Positions 5,183-42,802 of a stretch of 50,949 bases of DNA are shown here, piece after piece (the first letter of the stretch is position 1; each line of letters opens with the position of its first letter). Source of the stretch: a virus. The position numbers and the translations under genes are program-made. A model generated the notes under the pieces. It made no database searches and was not told where the DNA came from. It saw only the letters and a list, made by a program, of their open reading frames with translations. The stretch covers positions 1-50,949 of IMG/VR virus record IMGVR_UViG_3300046810_000362; one strand, written 5' to 3'.

Positions 5183-5186
5183 GCAC

Positions 5187-26961: not shown

Positions 26962-26974
26962 TCCGCGCCGGAGT

Positions 26975-27007
26975 GAGGGGGTGCACCCGGCATGGGTGCA
27001 CCCCCTC
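26975..27007 (+). terminator. Terminator after the major capsid gene
   Basis: A perfect 14-bp inverted repeat (26975-26988 with 26994-27007) with a 5-base loop starts 13 bases after the capsid stop. It is the expected stop signal for the abundant capsid mRNA. Confidence 0.85.
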
Positions 27008-27041
27008 CGACATAGCACCATCACGACGACGGAGGACCCTG

Positions 27042-27317
27042 GTGATCGAGAAGCAACCCACAGGACTCGCGGCAGAGTTGGACGCCCTCACCGGCGTCCC
27101 CGCCGCCCACCGGGGGCCGCGCTGCAGCGTGGGCACCCTCCTGGACGCCGCGGACGCCGACGTGGCCGCATCGCTGCGTGCGGTGTTGGAAATGACCAGT
27201 GTCTCCTCGGTGTCCATCGCCGAGACCCTCAGCCGCTACGGCGACCCGGTCACGGCGTACACCGTCGCCCGACACCGGCGGCGTGGGGAGCCCAACGGAT
27301 GCAGGTGCTCCCGATGA
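27042..27317 (+). CDS. Small HTH-like protein
   Basis: The 91-residue protein begins at GTG 27042 with GGAGGA at 27031-27036. Its C-terminal half (SSVSIAETLSRYGDPVTAYTVARHRRRGEPNGCRC) reads as a helix-turn-helix followed by basic residues and a CxC end, which resembles small actinophage DNA-binding proteins found beside metallophosphoesterases. The N-terminal half is Ala-rich helical (GTLLDAADADVAASLRAVL). It overlaps the next gene by 19 bases and is probably co-expressed with it. A regulatory or nuclease-partner role is inferred from motif and neighbour only. Confidence 0.65.
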   Translation: MIEKQPTGLAAELDALTGVPAAHRGPRCSVGTLLDAADADVAASLRAVLEMTSVSSVSIAETLSRYGDPVTAYTVARHRRRGEPNGCRCSR

Positions 27318-28561
27318 GCCTGAGCAACGACCTGCAGGCTCTCCTCGAGCCTGCCTCCCACGCGCAGAGCCAGCCCGCCCAGTCGCAGCGACTGCAGCCG
27401 GCCGTACCCCGCGGCTGGGAGAGCGGTGTGCGCTACGAGCCGGGCGGCACCATGGTCGTCACGGCCCCGCCCGCCGAGAAGCCGCCCGCCGGAGAAGACG
27501 ACTGGCGCGAACGCGTCGAGGAGATGGGCCTGGCCATCCCCGACGGCTTCCGCGTCCGACTGGTCGAGGCCCGACACGACCCGGCTGCTTGGCACCGCGA
27601 CAACCAGGGCGACGACGCTGTCACCCGCTCCGTGTGGCGCTGCCGGTATGTGATCGAGCCCGCGCAAGCTGCGTGGCTGTCCACCGGCGACGTCGACGCC
27701 CTCGTGCGGGACGCGATGCGCCGCCGCCGCAAGCCCCGCGCGGCCGTCGACACCGCCGAGCGTGCCCTGGTCGTCGTGTACGCGGACGCCCAGGCCGGGA
27801 AGGTCGGCCGCGACGGAGGCACCCCGGAGCTCCTCGCCCGGATCGCCGACCGCTTCGACCGGCTGGACGACCACATCCGCGACCTCAAGGCCGTGGGCCG
27901 CGCCCCGTCCGTCGCGTATTGGGCGGACGCCGGCGACTGCATTGAAGGGTTCGAGAACACCGCGCAACAGGCTTTCACCAACGATCTGACGTTGACGGAG
28001 ATGGTCCGCGTTCACCGCCGTGTGACGTTCGAGGGCCTGGACCGGCTCGCCGGGAAGTTCGGCCGCGTCGTCGCCGCGACGTGCGGCTCGAACCACGCCC
28101 GCGTGCGCCGCGGGAAGGACGCTGTCGGCCCGCCCGTCGACGACTGGGGCATCGAGGTCATGTCCCAGATCGCCGACGCCTACGCCCGCAACCAGGACGC
28201 CTACGGACACGTTTCGTTCGTGATGCCGGAGCGATGGCGGGACACCGTGTCGCTCGACGTCGCCGGGCACATCGTCGGCCTGTCCCACGGCCACCAGTAC
28301 CCGCGGCCGGAGAAGGCGGGCGACTGGTGGAGGGGGCAGACGTTCGGCCGCCAACCCGTGGCGGACGCCGACATCCTGATCACCGGGCATTACCACCACT
28401 TCCGTGCGCAGCAGATGGGCAACGGACGGCTGTGGATTCAGGCCCCGACGCTCGACAACGGGAGCGACTGGTACGCCGTCCGCTCCGGTGAGGTCTCCAC
28501 CTCCGGGCTGTTGGTGTTCAGCGTCGGCCCGGACGGCTGGGACGACCTGCGGATCTTGTGA
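27299..28561 (+). CDS. Calcineurin-like metallophosphoesterase
   Basis: The 420-residue protein carries the metal-binding motifs of metallophosphoesterases in order: a first Asp motif (VVYADAQAGK near residue 160), WADAGDCIEGF, the Asn-His motif (ATCGSNHARVRRG), the His motif (GLSHGHQYPRPEKAG) and the terminal GHYHHF. Such enzymes hydrolyse phosphodiesters in nucleic acids or nucleotides, and phage members often act as DNA exonucleases. The first about 60 residues are Gln/Pro-rich and probably flexible. ATG 27299 is chosen because GGGGAG lies 8 bases upstream; ATG 27314, which forms an ATGA overlap with the preceding gene, is the alternative. Confidence 0.85.
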   Translation: MQVLPMSLSNDLQALLEPASHAQSQPAQSQRLQPAVPRGWESGVRYEPGGTMVVTAPPAEKPPAGEDDWRERVEEMGLAIPDGFRVRLVEARHDPAAWHRDNQGDDAVTRSVWRCRYVIEPAQAAWLSTGDVDALVRDAMRRRRKPRAAVDTAERALVVVYADAQAGKVGRDGGTPELLARIADRFDRLDDHIRDLKAVGRAPSVAYWADAGDCIEGFENTAQQAFTNDLTLTEMVRVHRRVTFEGLDRLAGKFGRVVAATCGSNHARVRRGKDAVGPPVDDWGIEVMSQIADAYARNQDAYGHVSFVMPERWRDTVSLDVAGHIVGLSHGHQYPRPEKAGDWWRGQTFGRQPVADADILITGHYHHFRAQQMGNGRLWIQAPTLDNGSDWYAVRSGEVSTSGLLVFSVGPDGWDDLRIL

Positions 28562-28565
28562 GCGC

Positions 28566-28601
28566 GCGACGCAAGGGAGCGCGGAACTTCACCGTCCGGC
28601 C
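28566..28601 (+). promoter_or_regulatory. Two-box element copy D (leaderless-type)
   Basis: GCGACGCAAGG at 28566-28576, 13-base spacer, CACCGT at 28590-28595, then CCGGCC and ATG 28602. No Shine-Dalgarno precedes the start. Confidence 0.65.
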
Positions 28602-29342
28602 ATGACTGAAAAACCACGGTGGCTACTCACCCAGAACACAGACATGCGGCGGCAGGGGATTTGGAACTGGTCGATCCCGGCGTGGGCCGGAACTCTGCCT
28701 GACGGTCGCAACTACAACACGTGCCCCTCGGCAGGGATCTGCGCTCCGCTCTGCTACGCCAGGCAGGGGGCCTACCGGTTCCCCGGCGTCAAGGCGCGCC
28801 ACGAGGCGAACCTGATGATGGTGCTGGACGATCTGCCCGGCTGGGAAGCGCAGATGACCGCCGAGCTCCAGCACAAGCGGTACCAAGACCGGTGGGTCCG
28901 CTGTCACGACGCCGGCGACTTCTTCAGCGCGGAATACACCTCTGCCTGGATGCGCATCATGCGTGCCTCGCCGGGCGTCCGCTTCTATGCGTACACCAAG
29001 AGCGTTTCTCTCTTTCGCGAGGTAGTGGAGCCGGACCCGCCGGAGAACTTCAAGTGGGTGTACTCGCTTGGCGGCCGAGAGGACCACCTGGTCGACGTGA
29101 CCATCGAGCGGCACGTCGACATCTTCCCCGACGAGGAGTCCCTCGCCGAGGCCGGTTACACCTCCCGCGCGCAGGAGGGATGCCTGGTGTCCGTGCTGGG
29201 CCCGCAGAAGGTCGGCATCCCTGCGAACAACATCAAGCACCTCCAGAAGAAGCAGGGCCCCCACCGGTGGAGCGAGCTCCAGCGCGCCCAGGACGATCGC
29301 CGCCGCGGCCCCGGCAAGCAGTACAGCAGCGGGCGACCGTAG
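28602..29342 (+). CDS. GP88-family phage protein with a three-Cys cluster
   Basis: The 246-residue protein matches the phage GP88 type: C41-x5-C47-x3-C51 in NTCPSAGICAPLCYARQGAYRFPGV, then VRCHDAGDFFSAEYTSAWMRI and VRFYAYTKSVSLF, with a C-terminal CLVSVLG stretch and a basic tail. The Cys triplet and following barrel-like strands recall a radical-SAM or iron-sulfur fold, but no biochemical role is established to my knowledge. It begins right at a leaderless-type promoter element and ends just before a repeat-hairpin-repeat structure, so it is a single-gene unit inserted between capsid-block and connector genes. It may be an accessory (moron-like) gene. Confidence 0.75.
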   Translation: MTEKPRWLLTQNTDMRRQGIWNWSIPAWAGTLPDGRNYNTCPSAGICAPLCYARQGAYRFPGVKARHEANLMMVLDDLPGWEAQMTAELQHKRYQDRWVRCHDAGDFFSAEYTSAWMRIMRASPGVRFYAYTKSVSLFREVVEPDPPENFKWVYSLGGREDHLVDVTIERHVDIFPDEESLAEAGYTSRAQEGCLVSVLGPQKVGIPANNIKHLQKKQGPHRWSELQRAQDDRRRGPGKQYSSGRP

Positions 29343-29353
29343 CGACACCGCAT

Positions 29354-29382
29354 CAAGATCGTTCTTGCCCAATTGGGCAAGT
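29354..29382 (+). repeat. Palindromic repeat R2
   Basis: CAAGATCGTT (29354-29363) followed by the 18-bp palindrome CTTGCCCAATTGGGCAAG (29364-29381). It starts 12 bases after the GP88-like stop and is a direct repeat of R3, 60 bases downstream. Confidence 0.65.
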
Positions 29383-29413
29383 CCCGTCCGACCCCGGGGG
29401 TGTCGGACGGGAC
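29381..29413 (+). terminator. Hairpin between repeats R2 and R3
   Basis: A perfect 12-bp inverted repeat (29381-29392 with 29402-29413) encloses a 9-base loop and lies exactly between the two palindromic repeats. It probably terminates the GP88-like transcript. Confidence 0.65.
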
Positions 29414-29442
29414 CAAGATCATTCTTGCCCAATTGGGCAAGT
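29414..29442 (+). repeat. Palindromic repeat R3
   Basis: CAAGATCATT (29414-29423) followed by the same 18-bp palindrome at 29424-29441. It differs from R2 by one base in the flank and lies 21 bases before promoter element M. Confidence 0.65.
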
Positions 29443-29462
29443 GCGCCGGATCCCGGCAGGGC

Positions 29463-29498
29463 GCGACTCAAGCCAACCCCGTACCTCATCCTTCCGCG
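29463..29498 (+). promoter_or_regulatory. Two-box element copy M
   Basis: GCGACTCAAGC at 29463-29473, 13-base spacer, CATCCT at 29487-29492. The gene start at 29527 has its own ribosome site (AGGAAGGA), so a leader of about 28 bases is expected. Confidence 0.6.
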
Positions 29499-29526
29499 AC
29501 CATCACACCCCAGGAAGGACACCCTC

Positions 29527-29991
29527 ATGGGTCTCTACACGGCAAACGGCGCCCGGATCACCAAGGCAGCGTTTCCGACGACCAGCGTCGCCGATCCGGA
29601 GAAGGTCATCTCTCAGGACATCTACAGCACCCGCCCGTACACCACCGACGGCGACCAGCAGCCCGAAGGGTCCATCAAGACTCTCGCCTACAAGGCGGGT
29701 GCCGTTCTGCGTCAGTCCGAGATCGACAAGCTGTTCCCGGCCGCGACCATCGCCACGGTCAGCCCGGCTACGGGAGGGGTGGCGGGCGGCACTGTCGTCA
29801 CCATCACCGGCACCAACCTGGACGGGGTGTCGGCAGTCAACTTCGGCGCGACGGCGGGCACGGCCCTGACCATCCTGTCCGCCAAGAAGCTGACCGTCAC
29901 CGCACCGGCCGGCACTGCCGGGGCGAAGGACGTCGTCCTCGTCGACGACGCCGGCAACGTCACCAAGACCGGCGGCTACACCTACGCCTGA
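29527..29991 (+). CDS. IPT/TIG (Ig-like) domain protein, candidate capsid decoration protein
   Basis: The 154-residue protein has an N-terminal region with a polar start and LAYKAGAVLRQSEIDKLFP. The C-terminal part is an IPT/TIG Ig-like fold: [54 protein letters not shown] and KDVVLVDDAGN. Such domains decorate capsids or tails and may bind carbohydrates. ATG 29527 has AGGAAGGA 7 bases upstream. It follows the capsid region with its own promoter element and is followed by a terminator, so it is a monocistronic, probably abundant structural protein. Capsid rather than tail decoration is inferred from position. Confidence 0.75.
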   Translation: MGLYTANGARITKAAFPTTSVADPEKVISQDIYSTRPYTTDGDQQPEGSIKTLAYKAGAVLRQSEIDKLFPAATIATVSPATGGVAGGTVVTITGTNLDGVSAVNFGATAGTALTILSAKKLTVTAPAGTAGAKDVVLVDDAGNVTKTGGYTYA

Positions 29992-30002
29992 TCCGCGTAA
30001 CA

Positions 30003-30036
30003 GGGCAGCCCCTCCGCACGTGCGCAGGGGCTGCCC
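30003..30036 (+). terminator. Terminator after the Ig-like gene
   Basis: An 11-bp perfect inverted repeat (30003-30013 with 30026-30036), with a further palindrome GCACGTGC in the loop, starts 11 bases after the stop. Confidence 0.75.
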
Positions 30037-30076
30037 CGGGATCAACTCGCGTGCGTCCGGCTGCTCGAGGCAGGGC

Positions 30077-30112
30077 GCGACACAAGCGCCGCCCGGTGTG
30101 CAAGGTGCGCGC
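30077..30112 (+). promoter_or_regulatory. Two-box element copy E
   Basis: GCGACACAAGC at 30077-30087, 13-base spacer, CAAGGT at 30101-30106. It follows the terminator by 40 bases and precedes the connector operon start at 30147. Confidence 0.65.
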
Positions 30113-30146
30113 CGACCGGACCACCACCCCGAGAGGGAGCCCACCC

Positions 30147-30743
30147 ATGGCAGGCACCACCCGTACCCGTAAGCCCGCGGCCGCGAAGACTGCGGCCGAC
30201 TCCACCGCCGAGGCCACCACGTCGCCGGCCGACGCCACAGCGGAAGAGACCGCCCCCGGCGGGGACGCCACCAGCACGGCGGCCGCCGAGGAGACCGCCG
30301 CGGCTGTCGAGGAGACGGCTCCGTCTGTCGAGGAGCCCGCTCCGGCCGTCGACAGCACCCCGAAGGCGCCGGACGCTGCTCCGCTCGAGCCGCCCGCCGT
30401 CCAGGAGCCCCCGGCGGCCCCGGAGGTGCCCGTGTACGCCACCCCGACCGAGGTCATCCCCGACGAGGAGAACCTCGCCGAGGTCATCGTGGACGACGCG
30501 ACCAAGGAGCCCCCGGTCGACGTGGACTCCGTGTTCGTGCCTCTCACCCCGTACGGCTCCACGCTCGTGTGCACCGTGCGCCTGGTCGAGAAGACGTTCC
30601 TCGGGCCGCACCGCAACCCCGTCCACCGTCTCCTTCAGCCCGCCGGTGCCCACGTCTCCGAAGGTGTCGCCGCGCGGATCCAGGAGCGCCTCAACGCCCA
30701 GGCCGAGCGGCTCGCCGCCCAGGCCGCCGACGACGAGAAGTAA
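30147..30743 (+). CDS. Ala/Pro/Glu-rich structural protein of unknown function
   Basis: The 198-residue protein has about 95 N-terminal residues of low complexity (Ala, Glu, Thr, Pro) after a basic start (TRTRKPAAAK). The remainder looks folded (VDSVFVPLTPYGSTLVCTVRLVEKTFLGPHRNPVHRLLQPAGAHVS) and ends with a helix (ARIQERLNAQAERLAAQAA). ATG 30147 has GAGAGGGAG 8 bases upstream. As first gene of the connector operon it may be a head-tail or capsid-associated protein; I do not recognise a family. Confidence 0.7.
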   Translation: MAGTTRTRKPAAAKTAADSTAEATTSPADATAEETAPGGDATSTAAAEETAAAVEETAPSVEEPAPAVDSTPKAPDAAPLEPPAVQEPPAAPEVPVYATPTEVIPDEENLAEVIVDDATKEPPVDVDSVFVPLTPYGSTLVCTVRLVEKTFLGPHRNPVHRLLQPAGAHVSEGVAARIQERLNAQAERLAAQAADDEK

Positions 30744-30755
30744 GAGGGGTCAGGG

Positions 30756-31622
30756 GTGTCGGTCTTCGACTATCAGCCCATGTACGGCGGGGCGCACTAC
30801 GACCCCGAACCGGCCGGCGGAGCTGTCAGCCGCCTGGACCTGTACGGCACGGCCGACCGCAGCGGCCCCGTGGTCGCCGCGGCGACCACGGTCACTCGGC
30901 TTCGACCCGGCGCGTACCGGTTCGAGCTGCCCGAGGTACCGCCCGGCCGCTACTGGGGCATGGTGACCTTCACCCCCAGCGACGGGGCCCAGCCGGTCAA
31001 GGACACATCCGTGCGCCTCGACCTGCCCATGGGCATGGGCCTCGTCACCTCCCCGGAAGCCGTCGCCGACTCGCTCGGCGTGCCGCTCCCGATCACCGCC
31101 GACCAGCGCAGCGCACTGGAAACAGCTATCCGCAACGCACAAGCCGACGTGGTGGCCTACCTGAACCGCCCCGTCGTGCCGCGGGCCCTCACCCTGCGCG
31201 CTGCGACCCCGTTCTACACCGGCAACCTCGACGACGCGGAGTCGTGGCCCCTGCCCGACCAGGACGACCTCGTCGAGGTCATCGCCTACCGGCCGCACGG
31301 AGATGGCACCTACGACGTCGACTTCCTGGTGGGCCTCAACGGGGCCACGGAGGAGACCATCGTCCGCTACGTCACCGCGCACGCCGCAGAGTCCGAGAGG
31401 CAGCGCCCCGGCGGAGTGGGCAGCTCGGGGCGTCGCGTGTCCTCGGTGAGTGCAGAGGGACAGTCCATCTCCTACGAGACCGCGCCCACCGCCGGGCAGG
31501 CCGGAGCGCTCCCCGCTCTCGAGTCCCTGAACCGGCTACGCCGCCGCCTCTACCAACCACTCAACAGACCGTCGCGCCCGCCCTGGCCGTACTCCACGTA
31601 CCACGGCCGCCGGTACCGCTGA
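30756..31622 (+). CDS. Head-tail connector (adaptor) protein
   Basis: The 288-residue protein has an N-terminal beta domain (about residues 1-90: GAVSRLDLYGTADRSG, YRFELPEVPPGRYWGMVTFTP) followed by a helical adaptor-like region (VTSPEAVADSLGVPLPITADQRSALETAIRNAQADVVAYLNRPV), the pattern of the HK97 gp6-type adaptor that sits under the portal. The C-terminus is basic (NRLRRRLYQPLNRPSR). GTG 30756 follows AGAGGGG by a few bases. The N-terminal beta domain is an addition to the usual about 100-200-residue adaptor and resembles a domain often fused in actinophage connectors. Confidence 0.75.
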   Translation: MSVFDYQPMYGGAHYDPEPAGGAVSRLDLYGTADRSGPVVAAATTVTRLRPGAYRFELPEVPPGRYWGMVTFTPSDGAQPVKDTSVRLDLPMGMGLVTSPEAVADSLGVPLPITADQRSALETAIRNAQADVVAYLNRPVVPRALTLRAATPFYTGNLDDAESWPLPDQDDLVEVIAYRPHGDGTYDVDFLVGLNGATEETIVRYVTAHAAESERQRPGGVGSSGRRVSSVSAEGQSISYETAPTAGQAGALPALESLNRLRRRLYQPLNRPSRPPWPYSTYHGRRYR

Positions 31623-31643
31623 TCCACGAAAGGAACGCACCCG

Positions 31644-32279
31644 ATGGGCGACCTCTACCAGTCCTATGGGGAGCTGGCCGGCGGCCAGATCGAGGGCATC
31701 GACTATCAACGGATCTGGCGCATCTCCCAGGTCTCCACCCTGCTGCACCTCGCCATCCACGGAGGCGGGATCGAGACGGGCACGACCGAACTCGCGGACG
31801 CAGCCGCGGCCGACATCCACGACTTCTACAGCCTCGATGCCTTCAAGCCCGCCGGCACGAACGACGCCCTGCACATCACCTCCACCCGGTACGACGAGCC
31901 GCAGGCCCTCACGATGGCGCAGGCCGCCACCCACACCGTCTCGTGGCACGGCGCCACGGGCGCGACGTCGTTCACGTACCTCGGGGGCCTGGACTACAAC
32001 CTCCGCGACCAGATCGGCCAGTGCCTCAAGGACGCCGGGTTCACCGTGCAGCTCGCCACCGAGGAGCTGAACGGGAACGACGCCAAGAACATCTGTAACC
32101 GGAACAGCCGCGGCATGGGTGTTCAGCTCGAGATCAGCACCGCCCAGCGCGCCGCGTTCTTCCTCAACGGCGACATGACCCGGGCCAACCGCAAGAACAC
32201 CACCGCCGCGTTCACGACGTACGTCACCGCGGTCAAGCTGGGCGTCTCCAAGGCCCTCGTCGCCGCCGGAACAGGCTGA
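31644..32279 (+). CDS. Poly-gamma-glutamate hydrolase-like (PghP/YmaC-type) zinc enzyme
   Basis: The 211-residue protein matches the phage poly-gamma-glutamate hydrolase family, zinc enzymes that cut gamma-glutamyl bonds. Motifs in order are H39 in AIHGGGIETGTTEL (with E44 and E49), LHITSTRYDEP (H77), HTVSWHG (H102), and late NICNRNSRGMGVQLEIS with a family-typical Gln-Leu-Glu. No signal peptide or membrane segment is seen. It sits between the adaptor and the next connector gene, 21 bases after one stop and 2 bases before the next start, so it is made with structural proteins. Virion-borne cutting of a surface polymer or wall peptide is a plausible role; the natural substrate in an actinobacterial host is unknown. 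Confidence 0.8.
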   Translation: MGDLYQSYGELAGGQIEGIDYQRIWRISQVSTLLHLAIHGGGIETGTTELADAAAADIHDFYSLDAFKPAGTNDALHITSTRYDEPQALTMAQAATHTVSWHGATGATSFTYLGGLDYNLRDQIGQCLKDAGFTVQLATEELNGNDAKNICNRNSRGMGVQLEISTAQRAAFFLNGDMTRANRKNTTAAFTTYVTAVKLGVSKALVAAGTG

Positions 32280-32281
32280 CC

Positions 32282-32614
32282 ATGGCCGTCGTCCTCTCGA
32301 ACGCGCTGCTGACCGTGTATGCGCTCCCGCACCCCTGGGGGCGCGACGCCAACGGTGTGCCCGTACCGCCGAACCCGAACGCCCGGCCCGAGCCCCGCGG
32401 CACGTGGCCCGGGTCGGTGCTGGAGCAGGCCGACGGCTCATGGACGGTGCGCCTGGACCCGCAGGCCTGGCCGGTCAAGGAGGGCGACACCATCACCGAC
32501 GAGACCGGTCGGGCCTGGACGTTGACAAGCACCCGCAACCACCGCGTGCCCGGCTGCCCGGATGCCGACTACGTTCAGGCCACTGCCACCCTCAACCCTC
32601 CCGAGGTGCTGTGA
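32282..32614 (+). CDS. Head closure / head-tail connector-like protein
   Basis: The 110-residue all-beta-looking protein (LLTVYALPHPWG, GTWPGSVLEQADGSWTVRLDPQAWPVKEGDTITDETGRAWTLTSTRNH) is of the size and position of a head-closure (stopper) protein between adaptor and gp10-like genes. It starts 3 bases after the preceding stop, with no clear SD of its own (coupled translation). Its stop overlaps the next start by one base (TGATG). The assignment rests on gene order and predicted fold, not on a signature motif. Confidence 0.6.
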   Translation: MAVVLSNALLTVYALPHPWGRDANGVPVPPNPNARPEPRGTWPGSVLEQADGSWTVRLDPQAWPVKEGDTITDETGRAWTLTSTRNHRVPGCPDADYVQATATLNPPEVL

Positions 32615-33144
32615 TGGCCAAGTTCACGCCTACGCAAGGCCTCGAGGAGGCCCTCGCCCGCCTGCTCGCCCCCGCCGTGCAGCGCATCGCGCACCAGGTC
32701 GAGATCGAGGCGAAGCGGCTGGCTCCGCCCACCAAGCGATGGGTGACCGTCGGCGACGACAAGGTCCGCCCCACCCATGTCGAGGCCCAAGGGCAAGAGG
32801 TCCCCGGGAATCTCCGCTTCGAGATCAACTCCATGGACTGGGACATCGAACACCGCGGCGTCGGCGCGCACACCTACATGCTCGAGCCCCGCGACCAGAC
32901 CTCCCGGGCCGTCGCCAACCTCAAGAACTGCCGCTGCACCACGCACAAGGACCCAGACGGCATTGCCCGGCACATCAACACCGGTCAGCCCGTCGTCGCC
33001 GGGAAGAGGGTCACCGTCACCGTGTCGGTGCAAGCCCCGAAGGTGGTCGAGGCCGAGGTGGGCACCGTCTACCCCGGCAACCTGGTCGCCGACGGCGCAC
33101 ACTTCATGTCCCGCGCGGCTGCCATGGTTGCCGCCCGCCGCTGA
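32614..33144 (+). CDS. HK97 gp10-like neck protein carrying a MuF-type motif
   Basis: The 176-residue protein begins with a helix typical of gp10-type tail-completion proteins (LARLLAPAVQRIAHQVEIEAKRLAPPT). It then has WVTVGDDKVRPTHVEAQGQ (residues 43-61) and LKNCRCTTH (near 104), which parallel WVTRQDARVRPAHKALHG and INCRCRLHY in the portal-MuF fusion. The C-terminal part (VTVTVSVQAPKVVEAEVGTVYPGNLVADGAHF) returns to a gp10-like end. Thus the protein looks like gp10 with a MuF insertion. It overlaps its upstream neighbour by one base. A neck role, with contacts to the portal's MuF domain, is inferred. Confidence 0.65.
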   Translation: MAKFTPTQGLEEALARLLAPAVQRIAHQVEIEAKRLAPPTKRWVTVGDDKVRPTHVEAQGQEVPGNLRFEINSMDWDIEHRGVGAHTYMLEPRDQTSRAVANLKNCRCTTHKDPDGIARHINTGQPVVAGKRVTVTVSVQAPKVVEAEVGTVYPGNLVADGAHFMSRAAAMVAARR

Positions 33145-33151
33145 GGACGAC

Positions 33152-33187
33152 GCGACACAAGCCGCCCACGTCCGCACAGTGCGCGGC
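33152..33187 (+). promoter_or_regulatory. Two-box element copy C (leaderless-type)
   Basis: GCGACACAAGC at 33152-33162, 12-base spacer, CACAGT at 33175-33180, then GCGCGGC and ATG 33188. No ribosome site is present. Confidence 0.65.
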
Positions 33188-33466
33188 ATGGCTACGAACA
33201 CGACCATCAAGAAGCCCGCCGCCGCCGCGGCGGAGGAGTCCGGCGAGGCCGTCACTGAGACCGCTGAGGCCCGCCCCGAGCGCACCGCCCGCCGCACTGC
33301 GGCTGTCGTTGGTCCGCCCCTCGGTGAAGGCCAGGAGCCGGTCACCGTCACCCTGTCCCACCATCTGCGGATCGACGGGACCGACCACGCACCCGGCGCC
33401 GCAATCGACGTGTCCCCGGACTACGCCCGTCGCCTGCGTGCCCAGGGCTTCATCGCACGTACCTGA
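33188..33466 (+). CDS. Small conserved-looking phage structural protein
   Basis: The 92-residue protein has a disordered Ala/Glu-rich N-terminal half (residues 1-45) and a compact C-terminal domain: VTVTLSHHLRIDGTDHAPGAAIDVSPDYARRLRAQGFIA. This short beta-hairpin and helix unit recurs in many siphovirus connector operons without known function. ATG 33188 follows element C directly. Its stop overlaps the next start (TGATGA at 33464-33469). A tail-completion or virion accessory role is possible. Confidence 0.6.
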   Translation: MATNTTIKKPAAAAAEESGEAVTETAEARPERTARRTAAVVGPPLGEGQEPVTVTLSHHLRIDGTDHAPGAAIDVSPDYARRLRAQGFIART

Positions 33467-33891
33467 TGACCGAGCTGACACTCGCCGACGCCGACCCGGT
33501 CTCCGTACTCCTGGCGTGGCTCCAGCAGAGCGACGAGGTCGCCGACGCCCTCGGCGGCCCCGGCCGCGTGTCCGGCATCGCCGAGGCACCGTGGCCGCAT
33601 CTGGTCATCGGTCACGGCCCCGGCGGAGACCTGCGGGACCTGAACTGGGCGACGGCGCCGGAGGTGACGTTCGAGGTGCACGGGGACCCGGGCGGCTGGC
33701 CCGGCAAGGCCGAACTGCGGCGCATCCTCGTGCGCTGCGCCCAGGTCGCCCAGGGCATCGTCGAGGCGCCGCACACACCCGGCCGACCCGTCATCAACGG
33801 CGTGAAGCCGTCCGGTCTCCTGGTCTGGTCGCCGCTCGTCGACGGCCAACCCCGATGGCTGATGAACCTCTCAGTGACCCTGCATCCGTGA
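33466..33891 (+). CDS. Tail terminator-like protein
   Basis: The 141-residue protein has a helix (DPVSVLLAWLQQSDEVADALG), a central strand pair (WPHLVIGHGPGGDLRDLNWATAPEVTFEVHGDP), a helix with paired Arg/Cys (KAELRRILVRCAQVAQGIV) and C-terminal strands ending in LMNLSVTLHP. This alternation, with the gene immediately before the major tail protein, fits the tail terminator that caps the tail tube. The start overlaps the previous stop. Assignment is by size, order and secondary-structure pattern. Confidence 0.65.
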   Translation: MTELTLADADPVSVLLAWLQQSDEVADALGGPGRVSGIAEAPWPHLVIGHGPGGDLRDLNWATAPEVTFEVHGDPGGWPGKAELRRILVRCAQVAQGIVEAPHTPGRPVINGVKPSGLLVWSPLVDGQPRWLMNLSVTLHP

Positions 33892-33895
33892 CGAC

Positions 33896-33931
33896 GCGAC
33901 GTTAACCACTCCGGCTCTCCAAGGTGTTCGC
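33896..33931 (+). promoter_or_regulatory. Two-box element copy F
   Basis: GCGACGTTAAC at 33896-33906, 13-base spacer, CAAGGT at 33920-33925; expected transcript start near 33932, inside the loop of the overlapping hairpin (33916-33956). Confidence 0.65.
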
Positions 33932-33956
33932 GCCCTAGCACCGGACACCTTGGAGA
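33916..33956 (+). promoter_or_regulatory. Hairpin that would hide the ribosome site of the major tail gene
   Basis: A perfect 12-bp inverted repeat (33916-33927 with 33945-33956, loop 17) includes the only ribosome-site candidate (GGAGA 33952-33956) of the gene at 33965. Its left arm overlaps the second box of element F, so only transcripts coming from upstream contain both arms. Confidence 0.5.
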
Positions 33957-33964
33957 ACCCCGTC

Positions 33965-34555
33965 ATGGCAGGCACAAGCGCCAACAACAACGAGATCGTC
34001 ATCCCGTCGATCACCCGTATCTACCTGGCCCCTGTCGGCACCACCGCCCCGGCGGACGCCACTGTGGCCATGCCCGCGGCCCTGCGCAGCGTGGGCCTCA
34101 CCACCGAGGACAGCCTCAAGTTCAACTCCGAACCGAACTTCGAGCAGGTCAAGTCCGCGCAGTCGAGCTACCCGACCCGCACCTTCCAGACCAGCGATGC
34201 CGCGACCATCGAGGTCGACCTGCAGCAGTGGTCCGGCGAGAACTTCAAGGCCGTGTACGGCGGCGGTGAGATCGCCACCATCAGCGTTACCGGCCCGCCG
34301 GCGGCGACCCACTACAAGTTCACCCCGCCGCGCATCGGCTCCCGCACCGAAGTGATGGCCGTCATCGAGGTCATCGACGGCGGCAAGCACTACCGGTACG
34401 TCATTCCCCGCTGCATGCAGATGGAAGGCGTCTCCAAGGACCTCGCCAAGACCAAGGAGTCCGTCCTGCCTCTGCGGCTCGCGGTCCAGGGCGGCGACGA
34501 CCTCGATGCCTGGTACGTCCTCACCGACGACCCGGCGTTCGACCCCGCGGCGTGA
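33965..34555 (+). CDS. Major tail (tube) protein
   Basis: The 196-residue protein is rich in beta strands: ITRIYLAPVGTTAPA, LRSVGLTTEDSLKFNSEPNFEQVKSAQSSYPTRTF, AATIEVDLQQWSGENFKAVYGG, and a C-terminal YRYVIPRCMQMEGVSKDLAKTKESVLPLRLAVQGG. This is the layout of siphovirus tail tube subunits, which stack as hexamers around the tape measure. ATG 33965 uses GGAGA 9 bases upstream. It has its own promoter element, fitting high expression, and precedes the chaperone pair as in nearly all long-tailed phages. Confidence 0.85.
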   Translation: MAGTSANNNEIVIPSITRIYLAPVGTTAPADATVAMPAALRSVGLTTEDSLKFNSEPNFEQVKSAQSSYPTRTFQTSDAATIEVDLQQWSGENFKAVYGGGEIATISVTGPPAATHYKFTPPRIGSRTEVMAVIEVIDGGKHYRYVIPRCMQMEGVSKDLAKTKESVLPLRLAVQGGDDLDAWYVLTDDPAFDPAA

Positions 34556-34563
34556 CCTCTCCC

Positions 34564-34613
34564 GGCAGCGCGCGACACAAGCCCCCGCGGCTTGCCAGTG
34601 TCCGCGCGCTGCC
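34564..34613 (+). promoter_or_regulatory. Hairpin enclosing promoter element G
   Basis: An 11-bp inverted repeat (34564-34574 with 34603-34613) is extended inward by GACAC/GTGTC pairing across a bulge. The left arm contains the first box and the right arm the second box of element G, so read-through RNA would fold strongly while locally started RNA would not. Confidence 0.5.
34572..34607 (+). promoter_or_regulatory. Two-box element copy G
   Basis: GCGACACAAGC at 34572-34582, 13-base spacer, CAGTGT at 34596-34601 followed by CCGCGC. It precedes the tail chaperone gene at 34657. Confidence 0.6.
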
Positions 34614-34656
34614 GCAGGTGGCAACCCAGCTACGTACTCAAGAAGAGGTCACGCAC

Positions 34657-35181
34657 ATGTCGTTCGTCATCGACCTGGACGCCGAGCGCCGCGAGGTTCA
34701 GTACCCCGACGGCATCCCGGTCAAGTTCGGCGGAGAACAGTTCATTTTCCCGGCAGAACTGCCAGCGGAAGCCCTCGACCCGATCCTGTCCGACGAGCTG
34801 GACCTGGTCGGCCTCCTGGGCGACGTCCTCGAGTCTTCCGACGGAGACGCCGGCATCAAGGAGATCGTTAACGCCCTCTTCCGGCGCCCGTCCCTGCCGC
34901 GGAAGTTCCTCGAGGCGATCCGCGAGACCTACGCGATCCTCCTCCCCGACCAGTACGAGGACTTCCTTCGACAGCGCCCGTACATCGGCGACTACGTCCG
35001 CCTGACGACCGCCCTGACGAAGGTCTACGGGGTGGAACTGGGAAAGCTCTTTCGGTCTGCCGACTCCTCCGAGAACGCTTCGGAGACGTCGAGTCAGACC
35101 TCTCCCGCTACCACCGAGTCGACGCCCGACGCGTCTGGCTCCGCCCCGGACAGCCCGGATTCATCGGCCTCCGACGGCTGA
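34657..35181 (+). CDS. Tail assembly chaperone (G-type, zero-frame product)
   Basis: The 174-residue zero-frame product has an N-terminal beta part (SFVIDLDAERREVQYPDGIPVKFGGEQFIFPAELPAE) and helices (LDPILSDELDLVGLLGDVLESS, PRKFLEAIRETYAILLPDQYEDFLRQRPY). After the slippery site at 35040 its tail becomes a Ser/Thr/Asp low-complexity stretch. This is what is expected of the short G-type protein, which helps load tail tube subunits onto the tape measure. ATG 34657 has AGAAGAGG about 8 bases upstream. Gene order (tail tube, G/GT, tape measure) supports the assignment. Confidence 0.85.
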   Translation: MSFVIDLDAERREVQYPDGIPVKFGGEQFIFPAELPAEALDPILSDELDLVGLLGDVLESSDGDAGIKEIVNALFRRPSLPRKFLEAIRETYAILLPDQYEDFLRQRPYIGDYVRLTTALTKVYGVELGKLFRSADSSENASETSSQTSPATTESTPDASGSAPDSPDSSASDG

Positions 35182-35486
35182 TCTCCCTCGTCGACGGTCT
35201 GCCCGACGACTCCCAGGTCCGTTCTGTCCCTCTCGGGGGCTGGAACCGGGTCCTCGAGCTCTTGGCGCTGATCGTCGAGGAGATCGGGCTCCTTGCCGCA
35301 GACAAGCGGCGCGAGGAGCCCACCAGCATCGTTCGCCCGCCGCGCTCCGGCACTGCGACGCGCAGCAGCTCCGGCACCACGCCCCAGCCGCCGCAGCCCG
35401 CCCCGGAACCGCCGGCGCCCCGCATGACCGGCCACAGACAGATGCTCATGGCGGCCATGCAGAGAGGAATGGTCCGTAGTGGGTGA
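34657..35486 (+). CDS. Tail assembly chaperone GT fusion made by -1 frameshift
   Basis: The ribosome can slip back one base at GGGAAAG (35040-35046), read G GGA AAG in the zero frame, so base 35046 is read twice. The -1 frame then stays open to 35486 and encodes a clearly protein-like sequence: FGDVESDLSRYHRVDARRVWLRPGQ, GFIGLRRLISLVDGLPDDSQVRS, WNRVLELLALIVEEIGLLAADKRREE. This gives a fusion of 276 residues. The -1 frame has no good start codon before its conserved part, and its stop overlaps the tape measure start. The arrangement and heptamer equal those of lambda G/GT. Confidence 0.88.
35040..35046 (+). promoter_or_regulatory. Programmed -1 ribosomal frameshift site
   Basis: GGGAAAG fits X-XXY-YYZ in the zero frame (G GGA AAG), the same heptamer lambda uses for G/GT. 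The protein-like sequence changes frame at this point. Confidence 0.85.
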
Positions 35487-38400
35487 GGGCCTGCAGGCCG
35501 GTCGCCTCGACGTGCCGGTTGTCGCCGACCTTTCGGGGTTCGCGGCCAAGCTGCGCGCAGAAGTCGAGTCGGCCGCCGAAGGCCTGGCCGCGAAGATCAA
35601 GGTTGAGATCGACGCCAAGGGCCTACGACGACGACTCAAGGACGTGGTCAAGGAGGCGTCCAAGGGCGTCACCGCGAAGATCCGCGTGGAGGTCGACGAA
35701 GACCGGTTCCGTGCCTCCTTGGACGGCATCCGCCGCCGCATCGACGACTCTGACCTGAACGTTCCCGTCAGGCCGGACGGTGACGGCGACGGCTCGAACC
35801 GCGGCGGTCTACTTGCCGGGCTGCGGAACCTGATCACTGGCGCCCAGGGCGAAGCCGACCGGAACCCCGTCAACGTTCCGGTCAACATGCGGATGCCGGG
35901 GCGCGGTCGCGGCTCCCTGCGCATGCTCGGCATCGGTTCCCTCATCTCCCTGCTCGAGCCCGCCGTCGCCCTGATCGGCCAGTACGGCGCCGGCCTGACA
36001 GCCCTCGTGTCTGCGGCCGCGCCCGCGGTCGGTGTCCTGGGTGCTATCCCCGGGCTGATCGCCGCGGCGGGCACGGCCGCCATCGGCACGAAGGTGGCGT
36101 TCTCCGGCTTCGGCGACGCGCTCAAGGAGACGCTGAAGATTCAGCAGCAGCAGGCCGCCGGGACCAAGGTCACGAAGGCTCAGCAGCAGAAGCTCGACCA
36201 GGCCCTCGGCAAGCTGTCGAAGTCGGCGCGGGAGACCGTCACCACGGTCGCGAGCCTGTCGGGTGCCTGGCGGGACATGAAGAAGTCCGTCCAAGAGCGC
36301 TTCTTCTCCAAGATCGCCGACGAGGTCAAGCCCCTGTCGGAATCGGTCCTCCCGCTCTTCAAGAAGACCCTCGGCGACAGCGCCTCCCAGATGGGCAACC
36401 TCGCCAAGCGGGGCGCCCAGTTCATGCAGACCGGCGTCTTCCGCAGGGACTTCAAGACGATCGCGGGCACCAACTCGCGCGTCGTCGGCAACCTGACCGA
36501 TGGCCTGGCCAACATGGGCCACGCCACCATGGACTTCCTGGTGGCTTCCGGACCGTTCGTCGAGCGGGTCGGTAAGGCCGGCGAGAAGTTCACCCAGTGG
36601 GCCAGGGCCTCCGTGCAGGCGGGCCGGGAAACCGGCAGCCTCGCCAAGTTCTTGGACCACGCTGGCGACAAGGCCGCGCAGCTCGGCAGGACCACCGGCA
36701 ACCTCATAAAGGGACTCGGCGGGGTCGGCAAGGCCGCGATGGACAGCGGCAATGCCCTACTCGACGGCCTAGAGGGCAGCATGCTGCGCTTCACGCGCTG
36801 GGCCAACTCCGGCGTGGGCCAGAAGTCCATGCAAAAGTTCTTCAGCGACGCGGCCCCTGCGTTCCACGAGGTCAACCTCCTTTTCGGGGACCTCATGCGC
36901 GGGCTCGGCCGGTCCATGCGGGACGGCGGGATCACCGACCTCGTACGGCAGATCCGCACGGAACTGATGCCCGCTCTCGGCTCGTTCTTCAACGCCATCG
37001 GCCACAGCGTCGGGCCAGCGGTCATCTCCGTGATCTCGAACCTCGCCACGGCGATCGGGAACGTCTCGGCGGCGGGAAGCGGGCTCGCCGTACTGCTCGT
37101 GACCTTCAACGGGCTGCTGCAGATTTTCAACGGGGTCATGCGCGTGATCCCCGGGGCGAACACGGCGCTTGCTGTGTTCCTAGGCACGATGCTCGCCCTC
37201 AAGGTCGTCAGCGGCGTCGCCACGATGCTGCGCGGCTTCGGCACCTCCGTCACCGCCGCGGGCACCTCCGTGCGCACGCTCGGCACCACCATGCGGGGCA
37301 CGATGGGCGCTGGCGTCCTCGGCCCGCAGATCACCATGTGGCAGCGGATGGGGCTCGCCTACCAGGGCGCCGCCTCGCAGGGTGGCCGCCTCACCGGGAC
37401 ACTGCGCGGGATCGGCGCAGCCAACCGTGTCGCCTCCCGGGCCCTCGGCGGCATCACGTCCGCTCTCGGCGGCCCGCTCGGCATCGCCATCGCTGGCGTC
37501 ACGATCGGTCTCGGCTTGCTCGCCTCCAAGCAGGAGGCCGCAGCACGCGCCGCGGCCGCGCACGAGGAACGCGTCAACTCCCTCGCGCAGGCCCTGGCGG
37601 ACTCGAACGGCCAGATCGACGCCAACGTGCGCGCCCAGGCCGCGCAGTACCTCCAGGACATCAAGCTCGCCGATGGCAAGGGCAAGCTCGTCGACGTCAT
37701 GCGGGACGCCGGCGTGAACCTCAAGACGGTCACGGACGCCTACCTGCAGCAGGGCGGGTCAATCGACGGGCTGCAGAAGAAGCTGACCGGGCTTGCCGAT
37801 GCCACCAAGCACTACGTGAACTACGCCGGCGACAAGGCGTCCAAGCTCGAGTACACGGAGCAGGGCGAGAAGTACAAGGCCGCGGCCGACGCCCTTGGCA
37901 ACATGAGTGGCGAGCTGGACAAGTCGCGGAAGAAGCAGAAGGAACTAGACCAGGCGATCAACGGCTCGGCCACTACCGGCACGACGTCGTACGACCGTCT
38001 GCAGTCCGCCGTCCAGGGCTTCACCGACAAGACCAAGAGCGCGGACGAGCGGGTCGACTCCCTCAAGCGCGCTCTCAACGAGCTGCAGGGCAACACTCAG
38101 TCGTTCCACGACGCCGAGGCCCAGCTCAACGCCGTGATGCTCCAGATCGACGACACGATGAAGGAGAACATCGACAAGGCTGACGGCTGGGGCAAGAAGC
38201 TCGTCGACAACGACGGGTTGGTCAACACCGCGTCCAAGAACGGACAGTCGCTGAACTCGCAGCTCACGGACCTGCGCGACGGCATGCTCGGCGTGGCCAC
38301 CCGGGCGCAGGAAGCCGCGGAGCAGGGGCTCATGCCCATGTCCGAGGCAATGAGTAAGAGCCAGACGGCGATGGAGCAGGCCCGCGCGAAGGCCATTCAG

Positions 38401-39528
38401 CTCGCCACGGACATGGGCATCCCCAAGGAGCAGGCCAAGGCGCTTGCCGATCAGATGGGGTTCATCCCGGACACCGTGACCACCCTGATCACGACCCAGG
38501 GCATCCCGGAGGCGACCGCGGAGTTCCTGAGCCTGCGCAGCACCCTGGAGAGGATCCCTCCGGGTAAGGGCGTCCAGATCAAGGCGCCCACGCTCGAGGC
38601 CCGCACCCAGATTGAGGCCCTCGGCTTCAAGGTGCAGCGCATCCCCGGCTCCAAGAACATCGTGGTCACGGCTCCGACCAAGGGCGCGCGCATCAACATC
38701 GGCGCGCTCGCCGCGGACATCGCCAACGCCCCGGACAAGAAGAAGGTCACCGTCCAGGCGATCATCAAGCAGGCCGCCGGCGACCTGAAGAGCGTCCAAC
38801 AGAAGGTCTCGGGCCTACCCAAGGGCAAGTCCATCGACGTCAAGGCGCCCACGAAGACCGCCCAGGCCGCGCTCAAGGACCTCGGATACAAGATCAAGAC
38901 CGTCGACGGCTCGCATGGTAAGACCGTCCGGATCACCGCCCCGAACAAGACGCCCATCCAGCAGGTGCAGGCGATCCAGGGGAAGATCAACGGCCTCACC
39001 GGCAAGACCGTCCACGTCACCGTCAAGTACTCGACGCTGGGCAAGCCGTACGTCTCCCCGAAGGCAGACGGCGGGATCGTCCAGTTCGCCAACGGTGGCA
39101 TCAACCGCATGGCCGGCCGGGTGAAGGCGTTCGCGAACGGCGCGGAGCAGCACATCGCGCAGATCGCGAAAGCGGGCGAGATGCGCCTGTGGGCGGAGCC
39201 GGAGACCTATCCCGGCGAGGCGTACATCCCGCTGGCCCCGTCCAAGCGGAGGCGGTCCGAAGAGATCCTCTCCACGGTCGCGAAGTACTTCGGGGGCGCG
39301 GTCGTCTACCCGCAGCGCGGGCTGTCCACGTTCGCCAACGGCGGCATCAGGTCGTCGGCACGTCCCTCCACCGTCCGGCAGCGAGCGGCGGCCGCGCAGG
39401 CGGCGGGAGCGCTCGTCGGCGGTGACCTCAACCTGAACATCGGTGCGGTCGCATCGACTGGAACCGCCCTGGAGGACGCCATGTTCGAGCTGCGCCGCAT
39501 CCGACTCGGAGGGGGAGCCAATGCGTGA
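35479..39528 (+). CDS. Tape measure protein
   Basis: The 1,349-residue protein sets tail length and is the longest tail gene after the fibre. It begins with coiled-coil helices (FAAKLRAEVESAAEGLAAKI, LRRRLKDVVKEASKG), has long hydrophobic stretches near residues 155-215 (SLISLLEPAVALIGQYGAGL) and 510-600, and then further helices. Residues about 1030-1190 contain a repeated unit with (I/D)KAPT...A...LG(F/Y)K(V/I) and (V/I)TAPxK. The C-terminus ends with GDLNLNIGAVAS and a short basic tail. GTG 35479 overlaps the GT stop. By the common rule of about 0.15 nm per residue the tail would be near 200 nm. Confidence 0.92.
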   Translation: MGEGLQAGRLDVPVVADLSGFAAKLRAEVESAAEGLAAKIKVEIDAKGLRRRLKDVVKEASKGVTAKIRVEVDEDRFRASLDGIRRRIDDSDLNVPVRPDGDGDGSNRGGLLAGLRNLITGAQGEADRNPVNVPVNMRMPGRGRGSLRMLGIGSLISLLEPAVALIGQYGAGLTALVSAAAPAVGVLGAIPGLIAAAGTAAIGTKVAFSGFGDALKETLKIQQQQAAGTKVTKAQQQKLDQALGKLSKSARETVTTVASLSGAWRDMKKSVQERFFSKIADEVKPLSESVLPLFKKTLGDSASQMGNLAKRGAQFMQTGVFRRDFKTIAGTNSRVVGNLTDGLANMGHATMDFLVASGPFVERVGKAGEKFTQWARASVQAGRETGSLAKFLDHAGDKAAQLGRTTGNLIKGLGGVGKAAMDSGNALLDGLEGSMLRFTRWANSGVGQKSMQKFFSDAAPAFHEVNLLFGDLMRGLGRSMRDGGITDLVRQIRTELMPALGSFFNAIGHSVGPAVISVISNLATAIGNVSAAGSGLAVLLVTFNGLLQIFNGVMRVIPGANTALAVFLGTMLALKVVSGVATMLRGFGTSVTAAGTSVRTLGTTMRGTMGAGVLGPQITMWQRMGLAYQGAASQGGRLTGTLRGIGAANRVASRALGGITSALGGPLGIAIAGVTIGLGLLASKQEAAARAAAAHEERVNSLAQALADSNGQIDANVRAQAAQYLQDIKLADGKGKLVDVMRDAGVNLKTVTDAYLQQGGSIDGLQKKLTGLADATKHYVNYAGDKASKLEYTEQGEKYKAAADALGNMSGELDKSRKKQKELDQAINGSATTGTTSYDRLQSAVQGFTDKTKSADERVDSLKRALNELQGNTQSFHDAEAQLNAVMLQIDDTMKENIDKADGWGKKLVDNDGLVNTASKNGQSLNSQLTDLRDGMLGVATRAQEAAEQGLMPMSEAMSKSQTAMEQARAKAIQLATDMGIPKEQAKALADQMGFIPDTVTTLITTQGIPEATAEFLSLRSTLERIPPGKGVQIKAPTLEARTQIEALGFKVQRIPGSKNIVVTAPTKGARINIGALAADIANAPDKKKVTVQAIIKQAAGDLKSVQQKVSGLPKGKSIDVKAPTKTAQAALKDLGYKIKTVDGSHGKTVRITAPNKTPIQQVQAIQGKINGLTGKTVHVTVKYSTLGKPYVSPKADGGIVQFANGGINRMAGRVKAFANGAEQHIAQIAKAGEMRLWAEPETYPGEAYIPLAPSKRRRSEEILSTVAKYFGGAVVYPQRGLSTFANGGIRSSARPSTVRQRAAAAQAAGALVGGDLNLNIGAVASTGTALEDAMFELRRIRLGGGANA

Positions 39529-40564
39529 CGGCGAATGGGTCCTCGGCTACTCCCCTTACGACAACTACCCGGGCGCGTCGCTGACGTTCGGCCGCGAGAG
39601 CTCCGGCATCTACTGCCTGAGCGAGCCGGACGTCACGTTCGCTGACATGGACCTTGCCGACGCCGCGCTGCCGGGCGAGGACGGTATCCGCATGGGCCGC
39701 GACTACCAGCGGAACGCCACGGTCACGTTCGAGCTGGGCGTCGACGGCGTAGGGGGACCGATTGACCGGCACTGGCCCATGCGCCCGTGGACGCGAGGGA
39801 CCCGGGTCGGTGACTGGACCGACATCGAGGCGGTGCTCGCCGCCTACAACAAGAAGGACCAGGGGCCGTGCCAGTGGGGACTCGACGGCCTGAACATGCT
39901 GCGGCAGGTGTGGCGGGCCGACTCCACCCGAGGGAAGGCCGGCCGCGTCGCCTGGCTCGTACACAGCTCTGGAGGGCGCACCCGCCAGATGTACGGGCGC
40001 CCGAGGAAGTTCGCTGTCTCCCACTCCCGGCTGAGCCGCCAGGGGTACACGCCCGTCGTCTGCGAGTTCGTCGCCGTCGACGATCGCTTCTACGAGCAGA
40101 CAGAGAAAGAGGTCGAGCTCTACGACCACCTGTTCCTTGGACTGCCGCCGCGGCCCGGCCGAGTGTCGGGCGGCGGCTGGCTGTTCCAGTCGAAGAAGAC
40201 CGCTTCCTTCCAGCAGCGCGGCACGCTCAACACGTACCCGTACATCGAGATCCACGGGCCGTGTAAGAACCCGAAGGTCACGCTGACCCCGGAGCTGTGG
40301 GCGGTGCAGCTCAACATGACGATCGGCGTCGACGAGCACGTCACCATCGACGCCCGCCCGTGGGCACGGACGGTCACTCACTACAAGGGCTCGACGTCGA
40401 AGTCGGTGGCGGACAAGCTGACGCGGTCGAGTCCGAGGCTGTCGCAGATGTTCATCCCGCCCGGGTACTGGACGGCTTCGCTGGCCTACACGAAGTCGAC
40501 GGTCCGCGCGCTCGAGGGGCCGCGGATCCGGATCGCCTATCGCGACGCGTACTCCTGGTGGTGA
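39521..40564 (+). CDS. Distal tail-like (Dit-type) minor tail protein
   Basis: The 347-residue protein follows the tape measure and overlaps it by 8 bases, the normal place of the distal tail protein that joins tube and baseplate. Visible features are EPDVTFADMDLADAALPGEDGIRMGRDYQ, PMRPWTRGTRVGDWTDIEAVLAAYN and a beta-rich C-terminal half (NTYPYIEIHGPCKNPKVTLTPELW) that suits a Dit galectin-like domain. ATG 39521 has GGAGGGGG 4-6 bases upstream; upstream in-frame starts lie inside the tape measure gene. Confidence 0.75.
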   Translation: MRDGEWVLGYSPYDNYPGASLTFGRESSGIYCLSEPDVTFADMDLADAALPGEDGIRMGRDYQRNATVTFELGVDGVGGPIDRHWPMRPWTRGTRVGDWTDIEAVLAAYNKKDQGPCQWGLDGLNMLRQVWRADSTRGKAGRVAWLVHSSGGRTRQMYGRPRKFAVSHSRLSRQGYTPVVCEFVAVDDRFYEQTEKEVELYDHLFLGLPPRPGRVSGGGWLFQSKKTASFQQRGTLNTYPYIEIHGPCKNPKVTLTPELWAVQLNMTIGVDEHVTIDARPWARTVTHYKGSTSKSVADKLTRSSPRLSQMFIPPGYWTASLAYTKSTVRALEGPRIRIAYRDAYSWW

Positions 40565-40568
40565 GCAC

Positions 40569-40604
40569 GCGACAGTAGGCTCCGCGGCCGCCCACTCTCT
40601 CCTC
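40569..40604 (+). promoter_or_regulatory. Two-box element copy I
   Basis: GCGACAGTAGG at 40569-40579, 13-base spacer, CACTCT at 40593-40598. It precedes the minor tail operon (40628). Confidence 0.55.
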
Positions 40605-40627
40605 CCCTTATGGAGAAGGAGAACGGC

Positions 40628-41596
40628 ATGACGTGGGACGGCATCCCCTGGTTCGTCGAGGGCACCGCAGCGTCCGAGGAGACGCTGCGCCTGATCGTCG
40701 AGGCGGCCGTGTCTGGCGGAGAGGGCGTCATCGGCCCCGCCGACCTCCTGGTGACGGCGCTGGACGCCCCGGCCGGCGCGGTCCAGGTGGCACCGGGGGC
40801 CATAGTGGCGAAGCGCCGCGCGGCCGCGGGCGGCGGGAACCAGTCCTACGCGGCACGGATGCCCACGCTGGAGCAGGTGGACATCGAGCCGACTGCCGCC
40901 GACGGAGGCAGGTCGGATCTGATCATCGCCAGGGTGGAGGACCCCTACGGCGGGGAGACCTGGCCGGCGCCCGAAGACCCGACGGTCGGCCCGTACGTCT
41001 TCACCCGAGTCATCCCCGACGTGCCGCAAGGCACCACGAGCATCCTCGACATCGACCCCGACTCCACCGCAATCACCCTGGCCCGGGTCGACGTGCCAGC
41101 GGGGACGACCAACATCACCGCTGGCATGGTCACCAACCTGCGGCAGATCGCGCGGCCGCGGTCGCAGACCTCGCGTCGGTACCTGCCCGGCGCCTGGTCG
41201 ACCCCGGACGACGTCGGCCCCATCACCGACGAGTGGGAGATGTTCCCGCTCGGTGCGACGTGGACGGAGAAGGTCCCGGAGTGGGCGACGCACGTGGCCG
41301 TGCACGTGTCCATCACGGGCCTGCTCCACCCCGACGCAACGGAGGCCCGCGGCCAGGTACGGGTGTCCTTCGGCGAGCAGCACGGGGTGGGCATGCCGTA
41401 CGGGGCCACCCAGGCGGGCCGGCTCGCCGTCCAGGCCGGGCACAAGTTCCTCCTCGACCCGGCCGACCGCGGGCAGATGCGGGACATCGACATCGAGGGC
41501 ATCGGCACCGCGGGCTTCACCGGTGTGCTGCGCGCCGACGCGTACACGGTGCTGTCGCTCGAGGTGACCTACTCGCAAGAGCCGGTGAGTGCCTGA
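40628..41596 (+). CDS. Minor tail protein
   Basis: The 322-residue protein begins WDGIPWFVEGTAASEETLRLIVEAAVSGGEGVIGPADLLVTALDAPAGAVQVAPGA in sequence, a pattern of tail proteins that form a base or receptor platform. A beta-rich middle (YVFTRVIPDVPQGTTSILDIDPDSTAITLARVDV) and a C-terminal domain (VRVSFGEQHGVG, GFTGVLRADAYTVLSLEVTYS) follow. ATG 40628 is chosen because AAGGAG lies 6 bases upstream; ATG 40610 would add six residues and lacks an SD. Its stop overlaps the next start (TGATG). Family-level function beyond minor tail protein is not clear. Confidence 0.7.
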   Translation: MTWDGIPWFVEGTAASEETLRLIVEAAVSGGEGVIGPADLLVTALDAPAGAVQVAPGAIVAKRRAAAGGGNQSYAARMPTLEQVDIEPTAADGGRSDLIIARVEDPYGGETWPAPEDPTVGPYVFTRVIPDVPQGTTSILDIDPDSTAITLARVDVPAGTTNITAGMVTNLRQIARPRSQTSRRYLPGAWSTPDDVGPITDEWEMFPLGATWTEKVPEWATHVAVHVSITGLLHPDATEARGQVRVSFGEQHGVGMPYGATQAGRLAVQAGHKFLLDPADRGQMRDIDIEGIGTAGFTGVLRADAYTVLSLEVTYSQEPVSA

Positions 41597-42795: not shown

Positions 42796-42802
42796 CCAGG
42801 CC

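Follow-up and report, generated by a model that had tools for sequence, protein, structure and literature searches.

The segment preceding the major tail (tube) protein gene of the viral record analysed here (hereinafter the window, 50,949 nucleotides) probably combines a late promoter of the phage with a lock that makes translation conditional. According to this model, an RNA polymerase presumably carrying a phage ECF-like sigma factor would start an RNA near 33933; such an RNA would include only the right arm of a hairpin, leaving the Shine-Dalgarno (SD) sequence free and allowing the tail tube protein to be made. RNA molecules reading through from upstream (for instance, from the capsid promoter, 8.3 kb away), the existence of which we assume, would also contain the left arm, supplied by the spacer and the -10 region of the promoter; they would fold into a stem of about 15 bp over the SD and would be poorly translated. 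Since the promoter would encode one half of the hairpin covering the SD, the tail tube gene would be translated only from the RNA of its own promoter. The likely purpose is to tie the tail tube output to that promoter, blocking leaky synthesis early in infection or in a lysogen.

The tail region of the window shares about 82% DNA identity with the Streptomyces phage Gilgamesh (129 kb), with the same gene order, promoter element, and hairpin. The window is also close to Streptomyces plasmids of 125-132 kb harboring phage structural genes, some of them with partition genes; on sequence grounds, it belongs to a group comprising Gilgamesh-type Streptomyces phages and these phage-like plasmids. In sister plasmids, the tail tube gene is immediately followed, still within the late operon, by a ParA/ParB pair on the opposite strand (49847-50000 in L082, with L083; 12691-15059 in L086; 12856-15269 in L087).

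Hairpin and promoter ahead of the tail tube gene

The gene at 33965-34555 (+ strand) codes for the tail tube protein (Pfam Phage_TTP_17, E 3e-37; phrog_117, E 3e-20) and is embedded in a same-strand operon, downstream of a gene (33466-33891, + strand) corresponding to the tail terminator in the relative Gilgamesh. An earlier note on this DNA had described a 12-bp perfect inverted repeat taking in the ribosome site of the tail gene. The two core sequences, TCTCCAAGGTGT (33916-33927) and ACACCTTGGAGA (33945-33956), are indeed exact reverse complements, and the SD (GGAGA, 33952-33956, 8 nt before the ATG at 33965) lies within the right arm. The full arms, both read on the + strand, span 33913-33930 and 33942-33959; they are 18 nt each, 89% complementary and 11 nt apart, and the CTCC of the left arm (33917-33920) represents the pairing partner of the SD. 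The folding of an RNA starting at 33890 yielded -39.4 kcal/mol (z -4.95), a value reached by none of 200 shuffled sequences, while an RNA starting at 33932 yielded -8.9 kcal/mol, with no excess over shuffles. No Rfam match was found within the window.

The left arm overlaps a promoter composed of a -35-like element, CGCGACGTTAAC (33895-33906, + strand), recurrent in related records, and a -10-like CAAGGT (33920-33925, + strand). The element, in the form CGCGAC[AG][CT]TA[AG]C, was retrieved from 19 out of 19 related records, on one strand per record with a single exception, and the reversed pattern used as a control gave 0 matches in the related records. A slightly wider form of it occurs nine times on the + strand of the window and never on the - strand, with 0.2 occurrences expected per strand. 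Taking the last C of the element as position zero, 62 of the 64 distinct copies have a T at +19 (T19, corresponding to T33925) and 63 have an A at -15.

Three gene families follow the element without any SD (0/25 sites), their start codon being located at position 27 (20 sites) or 28 (five sites), and these genes look leaderless. This, in turn, would imply that transcription starts at positions 26-28, which correspond to 33932-33934 in the window. These data support a tail tube RNA starting near 33933, downstream of the left arm; the previous placement of that arm within the promoter region, upstream of a start near 33932, is therefore supported, as the arm ends at 33930.

Concerning the factor recognizing the promoter, gp92 of Gilgamesh is an ECF-like sigma70 protein (sigma70 r2 + r4), and a homologous gene is harbored by 16 out of 19 records, the remaining three of which may be fragments. 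We infer that this phage sigma factor reads the element. A promoter for a single-subunit RNA polymerase was also considered, on the basis of a likeness to the SP6-type core, and rejected, since the search for PF00940 gave no match in the window record or in ten relatives; the control genomes gave none either, which makes this negative weak.

A ribosome finishing the upstream gene or a trailing RNA polymerase could disturb the hairpin. The stop codon of the upstream gene (33889-33891) precedes the left arm by 21 nt, so its ribosomes would probably leave the hairpin intact.

Conservation of the pairing and alternative explanations

A total of 28 tail tube gene loci were collected from Gilgamesh, IMG/VR, and GTDB genomes. 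The hairpin is present ahead of the tail tube gene in the relatives as well; at one locus (L013), the leader is non-homologous or cut. Between two sub-clades, the CTCTCC block is shifted by 2 nt with the -10 fixed, and the SD is paired in both; in the second of them, pairing is lost halfway along the stem, and all that remains is a short inner stem plus the outer stem that pairs with the SD. The part of the hairpin retained in every sub-clade is hence the one pairing with the SD, which is not what would be expected if the structure were mainly a terminator or attenuator stopping upstream RNA before the promoter, the overlap with the SD being incidental. A strong GC-rich stem located right at a promoter would suit such a role, and it has been suggested for actinobacteria that terminators may lack a U tract; a scan of the + strand from 24,000 to 43,000, which would miss stems without a T run, retrieved no terminator-like site, an indirect sign, together with the same-strand operon, of RNA reading through. 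However, the stem is followed by AACCCCGTC instead of the T run of an intrinsic terminator, it reaches beyond the transcription start as far as the ribosome site, and the different stems of other genes (see below) likewise cover the SD region. We therefore regard termination as an unlikely function of the hairpin, even though it is the best of the alternatives.

The accessibility of the SD was computed (as in all foldings here, with RNA parameters for 37 °C that take no account of ribosomes or of the kinetics of transcription). Over 23 distinct tail tube sites, the mean probability of the SD being unpaired was 0.05 in RNA begun upstream and 0.58 in RNA begun at position 27; the predicted value for the long RNA of the window was 0.01. 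The hidden-then-open pattern was shared by 87% of these sites vs. 2.2% of 91 other Gilgamesh genes with an SD, whose mean values were 0.32 (long) and 0.37 (short). The behavior previously proposed, i.e., an SD hidden in RNA coming from upstream and open in local RNA, was thus recovered by predicted folding. The SD pairs with positions 8-14, and an RNA beginning anywhere beyond about position 13 (33919) would leave it free, so that this conclusion is independent of the exact start.

Another alternative is that the element is itself the -10 and that transcription starts near 33913-33915; in this case, every transcript would contain the hairpin, which would serve either for regulated attenuation of translation or for processing by RNase III. 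T4 late promoters demonstrate that a -10-only element can work, and the left arm starts just 7 nt past the element. Nevertheless, this scenario leaves T19 unexplained and would give at least three SD-less gene families a leader of constant length (about 19 nt), likewise without an SD, rather than a leaderless start, and we consider it improbable.

A sister plasmid family, whose sigma factor is about 36% identical, has the same kind of element and hairpin at its tail tube gene, with arms TCGTGGCC/GGTCACGA or GGCCACGA, the counterpart in the main family being AGGTGTCC/GGACACCT. The comparison between the two families revealed compensatory changes at positions 16, 17, and 21 (A-U to U-A, G-C to C-G, and U-A to G-C, respectively), falling in and beside the -10 region. 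Within the alignable main family, covariation did not exceed that of shuffled sequences; hence, it is the contrast between the two families that speaks for covariation. In one sister member, MBT27, the SD of the tail tube gene is not masked (0.52 long, 0.50 short). The variability of the arms also bears on the possibility that a dimeric regulator binds the inverted repeat as an operator in the DNA: the palindrome extends across both the -10 and the start site proposed here, and several helix-turn-helix proteins are encoded by Gilgamesh, but the arm sequence, the loop length, and the center differ among genes and families, whereas a single operator would be shared. Moreover, the stems include G-U pairs (for the gene at 42886, they make up 15 of 244 cross-pairs), and their common factor is complementarity to the SD, all of which makes an operator very unlikely.

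The anti-SD motif CTCC is found in the spacer of 23 of 23 tail tube promoters, of 0 of 25 leaderless ones, and of 0 of 15 lysin ones, counts that come from related sequences and are hence not independent trials. It sits between the -35 and the -10, a part largely left free by the promoter. When promoters of other genes of the same phages were swapped in, the promoter-leader coupling dropped from -22.4 to -7.2 kcal/mol, and in the duplex swap test 20 of the 23 tail tube sites gave the lowest p that the test allows. The idea that the pairing merely follows from the spacer being rich in pyrimidines and the SD in purines, with no regulation involved, draws on the abundance of C/T in the spacers and on the capsid gene, whose own and swapped promoters pair equally well, but it is hardly tenable, given that, both for the tail tube gene and for the one at 42886, replacing the promoter by others of its class makes the pairing much weaker and that no anti-SD occurs where the SD is missing. 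Overall, these comparisons support the view that the conservation at this site is not explained by promoter function alone, and the reading given in the earlier note is backed at every step that can be tested on the sequence.

Other genes behind the same promoter type

Similar hairpins, which go beyond what had been claimed for this DNA, occur by folding and pairing predictions at the gene at 42886, at the lysin gene and, weakly, at the capsid gene. In the first case (42802-42886, + strand, with the element at 42802-42813), a long hairpin has 42814-42837 as its left strand, paired to the SD region GGAGGGGAGG; the folding energy is -46.0 kcal/mol when the promoter strand is included and -17.4 kcal/mol from position 27. 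The relatives have several dissimilar stems covering or adjoining the SD region of this gene, and in the duplex swap test the lowest attainable p was obtained at 8 of 12 sites. The local RNA is only partly open: the SD nearest to the start codon is still paired with the coding region, and thus only the upstream one of the two SD-like motifs would be freed. As for the lysin gene (gp88 in Gilgamesh and its relatives), the SD is hidden in 15 out of 15 long RNAs, its partner lies at positions 21-32, over the inferred start, and the local RNA is only partly open (0.28), so we would call this predicted arrangement similar but not clean.

Regarding the major capsid gene (25669), the promoter and leader (25554-25668, + strand) have an anti-SD in the spacer that is clear in many relatives and weak in the window; CTCC is present in the spacer of 12 out of 16 capsid promoters, and in the duplex test its own promoter paired with the SD no better than swapped ones. 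The leader (25566-25668) also contains a strongly conserved stretch, GCGTTGAGGCGTCCCGGTGCTGGCCGGGCGAGCGACGCACGTCAACCGC, partly kept even in the sister plasmids, which looks like a structured leader RNA with no match in Rfam.

Three further promoters were examined and discarded as instances. The gene at 49015 (element at 48949) has a hairpin, but the accessibility of its SD hardly changes; at the chaperone promoter (34573), the SD is hidden only via sequence upstream of position 1; and at the promoter at 30078 the SD is not hidden. In the interval separating the tail tube gene from the tail chaperone gene, a long inverted repeat (34564-34612, CGGCAGCGCGCGACAC ... GTGTCCGCGCGCTGCCG) is a variant promoter (CGCGACACAAGC, with T19), whose -35 is complementary to its own -10/start region.

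One might depict an operon-wide rule, according to which the first gene after each phage-sigma promoter would be translatable only from the RNA of that promoter, either by being leaderless or through an anti-SD strand that the promoter encodes and that read-through RNA alone contains. The output of each such gene would then be set by its own promoter, independently of upstream transcription within one continuous late operon. We advance this tentatively, as a proposal rather than a result, because the promoters at 30078, 34573, and 48949 do not fit it.

Comparison with known systems

The initiation regions of the T4 genes e, soc, 49, and I-TevI are sequestered in RNA structures (PMC3014915, PMC2988022). 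For e and I-TevI, this occurs in RNA initiated upstream, and adjacent late promoters give RNA without the 5' strand (PMC3014915, PMC2988022); the long RNA of gene e (lysozyme) is translated about 100-fold less than the short one (PMC3014915), and mobE of phage Aeh1 has a leader of the same group as T4 e (PMC3014915, PMC2988022). The resemblance to T4 late genes that are silent in read-through transcripts, suggested previously, is borne out structurally: as in gene e, the SD is predicted to be buried by a hairpin in the long RNA, and a promoter in or by the left arm would give a short, translated RNA lacking that arm.

The differences are nonetheless several. The present phages are unrelated to T4 and belong to a GC-rich actinomycete; the phage sigma factor and promoter are others. 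The genes that fit most clearly are structural ones lying in a single late operon, which implies that the silent RNA may itself be late. Moreover, the anti-SD sits in the -35/-10 spacer, and several genes with different stems stand alongside leaderless-type genes behind the same promoter class. Since the element (CGCGAC[AG][CT]TA[AG]C with T19) and the ECF-like sigma factor differ from those of a T4-type late promoter, the site would work like T4 e without being a member of the T4 family.

In mycobacteria, a start codon at the 5' end of the RNA is necessary and sufficient for leaderless translation (PMC4633059). Several first genes after the phage promoter appear to have that form; unlike the actinobacterial case, leaderless-type and SD-hidden genes alternate here behind one type of phage promoter, an alternation that would give a single outcome, i.e., translation only from the RNA of the own promoter. 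A literature search, most subscription papers lying outside it, retrieved no published promoter or translational control for Gilgamesh-type Streptomyces phages and their plasmid relatives, nor any account of this kind of control in Streptomyces phages generally.

If the model is correct, actinobacterial phages independently acquired a type of control described mostly in T4-type phages, and they use it on virion structural genes and, less cleanly, on the lysin gene. It would provide a simple, testable answer to how genes are expressed independently, without terminators, in a densely transcribed late operon. It would also predict true transcription starts and misannotated start codons, such as those of Gilgamesh genes 45 and 48.

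At 5186-5224 and 8650-8688 of the window, a GTG or ATG at position 27 (5224 and 8688) is conserved in all the relatives seen, and the ATG at position 15 is not kept at the first gene (counterparts of Gilgamesh genes 45/48). The start codons annotated for these two Gilgamesh genes (position 15) are thus probably wrong, and the genes look leaderless. A variant element, CGCGACGCAAGG (28565-28604), has an ATG at position 26 and no SD, and the gene after it is likely leaderless too. Finally, a single ORF of 4523 codons spans 8670-22241; its counterpart at the corresponding place in the related plasmids, longer than 13 kb, is annotated as a helicase-domain protein.
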